From assembly GCF_003201675.2 (NCBI RefSeq), contig NZ_CP029287.2, positions 1,736,001-1,800,000 on the forward strand: DNA of 64,000 bases. The letters run 5' to 3'. The position numbers were made by a program, and so were the translations under genes. The DNA is from Metallosphaera hakonensis JCM 8857 = DSM 7519. Lineage in GTDB: Archaea; Thermoproteota; Thermoprotei_A; Sulfolobales; Sulfolobaceae. The notes under the pieces are model-generated. The model did not search any database, was not told where the DNA came from, and saw only the letters and a program-made list of their open reading frames with translations. Positions 23,687-59,463 of the stretch are shown here, piece after piece (the first letter of the stretch is position 1; each line of letters opens with the position of its first letter).

Positions 23687-23938
23687 TTACCTTATTCTTC
23701 TTATTGTAATTTCGGCGTGATCCCCAACAACGTCCCCCTTAAACAGATATCTAGGGGCATTCTTGAGTAATTGATGCGTACACAAGATCCTATCGGAGTC
23801 TGCAGTAAGGGAGAGAACATCTCCAGGTTTCATGGCTACTAAAACTTTAGATATTTCAACCATGAACTCATCGCAGGATTTACCCCTAAGATCTAAAGTG
23901 AAGGTCTGCGGCATACCTAATCTCAAACTACAGGACAT
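23687..23938 (-). CDS. TusA/SirA-like protein
   Basis: An 83-residue protein with the TusA fold pattern: a first strand [12 protein letters not shown], a helix [16 protein letters not shown] and a strand SLTADSDRI. TusA-family proteins carry sulfur on a cysteine that is normally followed by proline (CPxP); here the motif is CDEF, so the cysteine is kept but the proline is not. Two further cysteines (near the N-terminus and in ILCTHQLL) are present. Sulfur trafficking is expected for Sulfolobales, but the altered motif means the role is inferred. Start chosen at the ATG at 23938; a short Met-Ser-Cys extension precedes the domain. Confidence 0.65.
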
Positions 23939-24298
23939 TTTTAAGCATTTTTAATAAACGTGTTTTATGTGTCGCTTCAGATTTTACAAGGCTCGCTAAA
24001 CTCGGTTTTAAATTGACGTTTGGTTTTGAATTTGGGGGAGATAATGTGCCTTACATCTATATGAGTAGAAGTTGTTCGCAAAAAGTGGTTCATAAGATGA
24101 CATCATGGGATCGTCAGATCGAAATTATGCACTTACTCGCAGTTAAAAAAGATTGAAGATACGGAAAATTAACCTGAAACGAGGCGGGAGATTCAATATA
24201 CTTCATTAACACGGAATCATTGTCGTCTTCTTTCACTTCCCCTTGTTTTTTGGGAATTCCTAGAACATTTAAGTTTTGCGAAAAACATATAAATTAAC
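23939..24298. other. Spacer left of the integrase relic
   Basis: About 360 bp with no convincing gene. If the adjacent integrase fragment marks an old integration, the body of the element would have extended in this direction, but no integrase C-terminal part or second copy of the tRNA-Gly 3' end was found here or further left in the window. A TATA-like ACATATAAATT lies at 24285-24295. Confidence 0.4.
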
Positions 24299-24535
24299 AT
24301 GAATCAACTTCCTGTTTATTTGGACGTAAATGGGATAATTTTACGCCTTAAGAACGGGAGGTATTATGTTTCAATTATAGAGAATGGTGAAGGAGGAAGC
24401 GTAAAGGTGCTTTATGTGGGACCTTTAGAAAAGATCGTGAAAAATTACTTAGAGGATATGACCCTAAAGGTGCGACCGCCGGGATTTGAACCCGGGACTT
24501 CTGGCTTGGAAGGCCAGCGTCCTAATCCAGGCTAG
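24299..24535 (+). pseudogene. SSV-type integrase N-terminal fragment, int(N), overlapping tRNA-Gly
   Basis: A 78-codon frame. Its first 57 codons give a short N-terminal domain of the type seen in SSV-like crenarchaeal integrases (ILRLKNGRYYVSIIENG and VKVLYVGPLEKIVKNYL). It then runs antisense through the 3' half of tRNA-Gly, where translation gives PPGFEPGTSGLEGQ, and stops inside the tRNA. SSV-type elements carry their attachment site inside int, so integration into a tRNA leaves exactly this arrangement: int(N) abutting and overlapping the tRNA 3' end. The catalytic C-terminal part (R..HRY) is not in the window, so the element has been lost or rearranged. The family call is from pattern memory and arrangement together. 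Confidence 0.75.
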
Positions 24536-24546
24536 ACTACGGCCGC
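24471..24546 (-). tRNA. tRNA-Gly (anticodon TCC)
   Basis: On the minus strand the acceptor GCGGCCG pairs with CGGTCGC (one G-U), discriminator A. The anticodon loop is CTTCCAA with anticodon TCC, reading GGA; anticodon stem CTGGC/GCCAG; T stem CCGGG/CCCGG with loop TTCAAAT. No intron and no encoded CCA. Its 3' half doubles as the attachment site of the integrase fragment described at 24299-24535. The gene remains intact, as expected after SSV-type integration. Confidence 0.93.
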
Positions 24547-24657: not shown

Positions 24658-26592
24658 TCACCCTCGTGACGGCGAGATCACGGTGAACTTCTCGCCTAAC
24701 AATTCCGTTGCATTGGTCCCCAAATCCGCATCATATTCCCTGAGGATCTCTTTTAGTTCTTTCGCCTCTTCCTCATTTAACTCCCTGTACTCGTAGGTTG
24801 GGATACCCACTTTCTCTTCGAACAGTCTCCTGGCGTACTTCTTAGCCTCTCCCTTGAGCCTATTCATCACATCGACGTAGGATGTGGGCTCGATATCGTC
24901 GATGTAACCCTCCATCTTAAGGGCTTTCAACAATCTAGCTACTTCGAGCCTATTGGGCTGGATGCCAATTTTCTCTGGTTCAACTTTTCCTCTGACAAAT
25001 ATTTTACCCCCTACCATTCCAGTTCCAACGAAGTTCCCAGTCTTCTCTCCTTTCACTCTCAATCCAAGAACTACAATGACTCCACCGGCCATATACTCTC
25101 CAAGGTAGTCGTCTACTCTTCCGCCTATCACCAGATAGGGCCTTTTATTTGCATATTCACGCATCTGTATTCCCACCCTGTTACCAGCGTTGCCTCCAAC
25201 AAAGACCTTCCCACCCTGTAGAGTCTGGGCCAATACATCGCGGGCGTCCCCGGTAATTACCACCTTTCCCCCGTGCATGGTGTCGCAACAATCGTCAGCA
25301 ACGTTCCCGTAAACGTAGAATTCGTTGTTCTCGTTAAGGTTAGCCATGGCGTTTCCCACAACTCCGTAGAGCCTCACCTTCATCCCAGCCCTGGGAAAGG
25401 TCAATCCTACGTACCTATGTCCCATCACATTGATTACCTTGACCTCCTTCTTACCTGTTTTCAGTATCTCCCTGTTTAAGTCCTTGTAACCCACGCGACT
25501 AGCATCTATGTCATAGTCCGATGAAGTGAAGCTTGGGTAAGCGGAAAAACTACGAATTTCCTCAATGTCCCTTCCATAACTAATAACCCCCTTCTTAAGG
25601 GAAGCAATGAAATAGGAACCAGGATTGAGTGTCCATACTTTAGCCTCTCGGCTCATCAATCTTATCTGGCTTTCCTCGCTCGCGATATAGTAATAATACT
25701 CGTCTTCACCAATAAGCACGGGCCTGAACTTAGACCTATCAGCCAGTCCCACTATGTAGAGGTCTTCTCCAGAATCATACCCTATGATCGCGGTAAATGG
25801 ACCGTCCAGCCTAGCGTTTCTATAAAGGTAATCGTGATGGGGAGAGATCGCACTGGTCCTCCTCGATGGGTTCACTAAGATCTTAGATACTTCCTCTACT
25901 GTCAACCCCTCGCTTATTAATTCCTCAAAGAGAAAAGCCATGACCTCACTGTCCGTCCCCACAAAGCCTCCCCATCCCCTAGACTGAAGGAACTCTAGGT
26001 TTGCCCCAAAGGAACTAACGTCACCGTTGTGAACTATAGCAACGTCAAAGGACGAGAACGGGTGAGACCAATAGGGATAACTCCCAGGAGAGTTAGTGGG
26101 TTGTCTCGTGTGGGCAAGCCACATGTCCCCTGAGTACTTACTCACGTCATAGATCTTGGCGATGTCCTTCGGATATCCAACGCCCTTAAAGACGTTAAGC
26201 GATCTTCCCATGCTATATATTCTTCCCCTCCTGTCGGGCCAGAGCATCTCGTTTAGATTCCTAACCGCCTTCCTTAGCTGAGCTATGTTCCCAATGGAGA
26301 CCTTGTAATTACAACTACAAACCCCAGAGTCCTCTACCTCAACTTGTTCCTCGAGGACCTGCAACCCCTGATCTTCCATTACCCTCTTCATCTTTGAGGG
26401 ATCGTCAAGGAAAAAGGCTTTCAAATAGTAATAATTACCTTCTTCCTTGTTAAATACTGCAAAACCTGCCCCTTTGTCGCTTCCCCTATAGCTCACCGCG
26501 TCTATGGCAGTGACTACCTTGTCCCCAGGTATTTTAGGGGCGTGGGGCTTTCTTAAAATTCCGAAAACTCCGCAACCGGATGGAGATATCAT
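24658..26592 (-). CDS. Glutamate synthase, glutaminase and GXGXG domains
   Basis: Half of a two-gene archaeal glutamate synthase. The N-terminal class II glutamine amidotransferase domain begins at C7 in [10 protein letters not shown], with [24 protein letters not shown] and [11 protein letters not shown] motifs; it releases ammonia from glutamine. The C-terminal part (residues about 400-560) is the GltS alpha GXGXG beta-helix, with [37 protein letters not shown] and [12 protein letters not shown] repeats. The catalytic cysteine lies behind a six-residue leader that must be removed to free its amino group. The ATG overlaps the stop of the upstream FMN-domain gene by four bases. Confidence 0.85.

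Positions 26593-59375: not shown

Positions 59376-59463
<88 letters not shown>

Follow-up and report, generated by a model that had tools for sequence, protein, structure and literature searches.

The tRNA-Gly(TCC) gene in the window, by which we mean the whole 64,000-nucleotide stretch of DNA that was analyzed, very probably bears the neutral scar of a lost SSV-type element, of which the N-terminal piece of the integrase gene, int(N), was shielded by the tRNA while the rest was deleted. The fragment matches SSV-type integrases and is fused in antisense to the 3' half of the tRNA gene, the C-terminal part of the integrase gene, int(C), and the second att copy are missing, and sister genomes hold both empty and full versions of the site. 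The identity of the fragment, its fusion to the tRNA, and the sister-genome sites support the attL-type footprint of a lost SSV-type integration that the initial annotation had proposed. The host is a heat- and acid-loving archaeon of the genus Metallosphaera, and its genome (G000) is one closed contig of 2,544,115 bases (2.54 Mb). The features of the locus are listed in Table 1.

Table 1. Features at the tRNA-Gly(TCC) locus, in window coordinates, with the evidence on which each was called.
Feature	Coordinates	Strand	Evidence or remark
TusA-like gene, left chromosomal neighbor	23687..23938	-	PF01206, E value 4e-5, below the curated cut-off; orthologues
Dispersed repeat copy	23958..24083	.	At least 5 further places in the genome are 65-90% identical
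Leftover element DNA that includes CGGAATCATTGTCGTCTTCTTTCA, upstream of int(N)	24188..24256	.	Similarity to DNA upstream of other int(N)
TATA-like sequence, possible remnant promoter	24268..24275	+	By eye; the int(N) ATG follows about 25-30 bp downstream
int(N), N-terminal piece of an SSV-type integrase	24299..24468	+	PF07935, SSV1 integrase, alignment A2
Intact tRNA-Gly(TCC), host target gene	24469..24546	-	ARAGORN; fold; orthologues syntenic in sister genomes
att core, 44 bp of the tRNA 3' half read through by int(N)	24471..24514	.	100% duplicated in the G009 element
Glutamate-synthase-like gene, right neighbor of the tRNA	24658..26592	-	Syntenic in G006 to G009

SSV-type integrases carry attP within their own gene, and this attP copies the 3' half of the tRNA. 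On integration, the tRNA is restored and int is split, so that int(N) adjoins the restored tRNA and int(C) lies at the opposite end of the element. At the locus, a plus-strand ORF of 78 amino acids (24299-24535, ATG at 24299) consists of 56 complete codons without internal stops upstream of the tRNA and stays open inside the tRNA as far as 24535. The att core, identical to the tRNA-Gly(TCC) 3' half, sits inside this int frame, and the translated frame contains the peptide PPGFEPGTSG, which is encoded by the tRNA itself, as had been described from the start. The fragment was matched by the Pfam profile PF07935 (SSV1_ORF_D-335) with an E value of 1.9e-12 and 47.7 bits (cut-off 22), and by the SSV1 integrase in tblastn with 3e-10 and about 50% identity, beneath the integration site annotated in the SSV1 record. 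Since the tRNA-encoded stretch could inflate such scores, a separate search was run with the 56 codons upstream of the tRNA, and these alone found int(N) matches in 25 of 31 family genomes, with the best match outside the own genome at 2.3e-9 and 54% identity. Judged from the sequence comparison, the similarity to int(N) is independent of the tRNA-encoded residues.

These matches bear out the integrase-like N-terminus of about 57 codons running into the tRNA-Gly 3' half, and the comparison with SSV-type integrases that the initial annotation had suggested identifies the fragment as homologous to their N-termini. SSV-type integrases split their own gene on integration, int(N) and int(C) being known products, and in the pNOB8-type class the gene remains whole (PMC8371274), so that the pNOB8-type integrases, which had also been named for comparison, are not candidates. 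Amounting to the first fifth of an integrase gene and devoid of the catalytic domain, the fragment cannot act as a recombinase. Among solved structures, none was relevant to it, and a search of viral contigs with the single 78-amino-acid query returned no confirmed relatives. The tRNA-Gly(TCC) gene folds as a complete cloverleaf (z = -3.4) and, being intact, can still be a putative integration target. Elsewhere in the window, ARAGORN called a tRNA at 59376-59463 that it assigned to no known type and whose anticodon has four bases (ctaa), likely an intron-bearing or doubtful tRNA.

The remainder of the element was not found in the closed genome. The 33-base core of the tRNA 3' half has one exact occurrence there, and no second att was detected with up to three mismatches, the sole other place being the tRNA-Gly(CCC) gene; a search of the genome with the whole tRNA returned other tRNA genes and short partial matches and no second attachment half of tRNA-Gly(TCC). 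An int(C) with the catalytic domain was found in the closed genome neither with the PF16795 profile nor with a profile built from the C-terminal parts of five integrases. The five-sequence profile detects int(C) in relatives (E values down to 6e-134, and 9e-114 in G009), so that its empty result in the own genome is meaningful. The lack of int(C) and of a second att, first noted to the left of the fragment, thus extends over the entire closed genome, and the suggested genome scan for attR with int(C) beside it yielded no second copy and no adjacent int(C). Of the two fates that had been offered for the element, loss is upheld, and a move elsewhere is contradicted by int(C) being found nowhere in the genome. 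The search for a decayed second att to the left of int(N) gave only a chance-level score, so that the point where the lost element ended on the left is not fixed. The sequence GGTTTTGAATTTGGGGGA near 24020 was tried as a decayed second att and rejected, as it scored at chance level and the stretch is part of the dispersed host repeat.

The distance from int(N) to the conserved host gene on its left is 360 bp. No phage or plasmid record, viral DNA, or protein family was matched in the DNA between the TusA-like gene and int(N), and the Fuselloviridae genes (VP1, VP3, and DnaA-like) are absent beside int(N) at the locus; with only this short stretch beside int(N) and no viral matches in it, the lost element could have been either a virus or a plasmid. 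Part of the interval (24188-24256) resembles the DNA lying about as far upstream of int(N) at other tRNAs in other genomes, with scores of up to 30 versus a maximum of 17 in reversed controls, so that about 110 bp of element DNA are left beside int(N). The motif in this part was present within 400 bp upstream in 41 of the 153 int(N) surveyed, and SSV1 and pSSVi also have it at their integrase end. Its conserved stretch near AGGAATCTTTGCCGTCTTCTTTCAATTC was located at 24209-24232 in the window and upstream of 40 other int(N), mostly 70-125 bp from the int(N) match. The motif may be a promoter, an arm site, or an RNA; reading it as coding sequence found no support, the frames being different and interrupted among the copies.

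The border of the deletion on the left falls between the dispersed repeat and position 24188. The repeat itself, of about 100 bp, is degenerate, with several copies in the genome (L237, L238, L239, L240, and L242) and one in G011, and the window copy had no matches among phage and plasmid records. A 47-amino-acid ORF at 24013-24156 matched no Pfam family.

The same site was compared in the sister genomes. The gene order superoxide dismutase, membrane protein, TusA-like gene, tRNA-Gly(TCC), and glutamate-synthase-like gene, the last of which we take to be so from its sequence, is common to the window and G006, and parts of it are retained in G007, G008, and G009 with the TusA-like gene turned or moved. 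In G006, the site is empty: the TusA-like gene borders it at 86 bp from tRNA-Gly(TCC), and int(N) is absent. The orthologous tRNA-Gly(TCC) of G009 carries a complete element in the order att, int(C), about 5.3 kb, int(N), and att/tRNA (L078, G009:C1:565924-571275, minus strand), with a far-end att copy of 44 bp at 100% identity (G009:C1:571232-571275), a PF16795 match on int(C) at 3e-56 and a PF07935 match on int(N) at 1e-29. This element includes an open frame of 845 codons without Pfam matches, which by eye looks like a helicase/ATPase. In G007, the tRNA-Gly(TCC) orthologue is joined to a different int(N), which is decayed, and G008 has 1.7 kb of unrelated DNA at the site and no int(N). The int(N) of the sister genomes differ in sequence and in the spacer to the tRNA, from which it follows that tRNA-Gly(TCC) was hit independently more than once. 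The initial annotation had named as contrary signs a lack of similarity to any integrase, a lack of att duplication anywhere, and conservation of the same frame in strains without an element; the fragment matches PF07935, att is duplicated at the same tRNA in G009, and the element-free G006 is also without the frame. The orientation of the TusA-like gene beside tRNA-Gly(TCC) varies among the sister genomes (L078, L080, and L082), and in G009 it lies on the other side of the tRNA.

The course of events would have begun with the insertion of a fusellovirus or a small plasmid with an SSV-type integrase into tRNA-Gly(TCC), and later deletions would have removed int(C) together with the second att, leaving very little of the element DNA. 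On the simplest explanation, shielding, int(N) would have survived through its position beside an essential tRNA, as a deletion running on past int(N) would kill the cell, and it presumably persists because its removal needs a breakpoint in a very short interval by that tRNA. Int(C) and the second att would have been without any such shielding neighbor. A local rearrangement instead of a simple deletion is possible, given that the TusA-like gene changes side and orientation among the sister genomes.

The fusion of int(N) to a tRNA gene recurs throughout the genome of the window and the family. PF07935 has 10 places in G000, and at every one of them int(N) overlaps, in antisense, the 3' half of an intact tRNA gene; the tRNAs are Gly(TCC), Gly(CCC), Gly(GCC), Val(TAC), Arg(TCG), Arg(CCG), Ala(GGC), Met(CAT), Gln(TTG), and Asn(GTT). 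The int(N) of the window is at genome position 1760299 and the others at 1300468, 1362084, 1388192, 1388651, 1394364, 1508138, 1534092, 1961493, and 2019399; some int(N) in this genome contain stops or are truncated. Stretches of 10-19 kb around the nine others contained no full-length second att, the single long extra att match being the neighboring tRNA-Gln(CTG) gene. In a survey of 31 Sulfolobaceae genomes, the counts per genome at E ≤ 0.001 add up to about 207 int(N), as against 26 int(C) matches below 1e-40, corresponding to about 24 loci once split ones were merged; the ratio of 207:24 is approximate, as the two profiles differ in length and make-up. The excess of int(N) over int(C) looks like one-sided decay next to tRNA genes. 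Fusion in antisense to an intact tRNA was observed for 134 of the 153 int(N) surveyed in the fetched family loci, and in 104 of these 134 there is no stop before the tRNA. Open frames, like that in the window, are more numerous than expected of very old neutral scars, a mild argument for recent turnover or weak constraint.

The prevalence of open frames, together with the candidate TATA-like sequence upstream of the frame in the window and the great surplus of int(N) over int(C), would also suit an orphan int(N) retained as a small protein, for instance, a binder of att or arm sites that hinders elements at the same tRNA. This reading is considered improbable. The pooled dN/dS was 0.82 and not different from 1 (binomial P of 0.56) in what is a weak test, comprising three selected int(N) pairs, each likely from a single integration event, that were chosen for flanks shared on both sides and low dS and that include no orthologue of the int(N) in the window. 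Pairs with low dN/dS were left out, being mostly independent integrations or having a dS too high for one shared event; in the independent-integration pairs, selection acted while the integrase was whole, so that their low ratios, indistinguishable from the effect of selection before integration, were not used. The stops and truncations among the int(N) of G000 and the presence of different int(N) or none at tRNA-Gly(TCC) of the sister genomes argue against a retained protein as well. Little credence is accordingly given to the wider proposal that int(N) outlast int(C) in Sulfolobaceae since some of them are att-binding proteins that limit re-integration at their tRNA.

Two further readings concern the locus itself. 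The complete element at tRNA-Gly(TCC) in G009 could suggest that the site in the window is occupied too, the element being still present to the left or elsewhere and int(N) forming one of its ends, but the absence of int(C) by two profiles and of the second att refutes this for the present assembly, and conserved host genes start immediately beyond the 360 bp, which makes such an arrangement extremely improbable. An origin of the ORF by chance, antisense to the tRNA, is refuted as well: the antisense of the tRNA 3' half gives a PPGFEPGTSG-like peptide with or without an integrase, but the 56 codons outside the tRNA match int(N) alone, and the element DNA upstream has its own matches.

Read as the remnant of a lost SSV-type element, the locus belongs to an already described type of scar and is in itself ordinary. 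In the available part of PMC3718332, int remnants over tRNA targets in Sulfolobus islandicus LAL14/1, REY15A, and HVE10/4 are taken as signs of ancestral integration, and 13 tRNA-gene insertion events are reported in one S. islandicus genome; an imbalance of int(N) and int(C) does not appear in that part of the source. As far as they are described there, the S. islandicus remnants are the same type of scar as that in the window, in a different genus and at different tRNAs. Together, the window and the sister genomes clearly show a single tRNA gene before, during, and after SSV-type integration. The int(N)-tRNA fusions make up a durable and countable record of past integrations and could serve to date and count the attacks of mobile elements per tRNA gene.

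Among known systems, SSV1 (ORF D-335) has the N-terminal domain, the att-core peptide PPGFEPGTSG, and the fusion of int(N) to the tRNA 3' half in common with the window, whereas the window keeps int(N) only, at about 50% identity, and has lost int(C), the second att, and the element itself. The att-core peptide of ASV1 is nearly identical to that of the window. The small Sulfolobus plasmids pSSVi and pXZ1, with SSV-type integrases whose N-terminus is 42-48% identical to that in the window, are intact circular elements, unlike the scar described here. The 5.3-kb element of G009 has the same tRNA, 44-bp att core, and fusion as the window, but it is complete with int(C), and its int(N), 31% identical to that of the window (alignment A2) and with att in another frame, comes from a separate integration event at the same tRNA gene.
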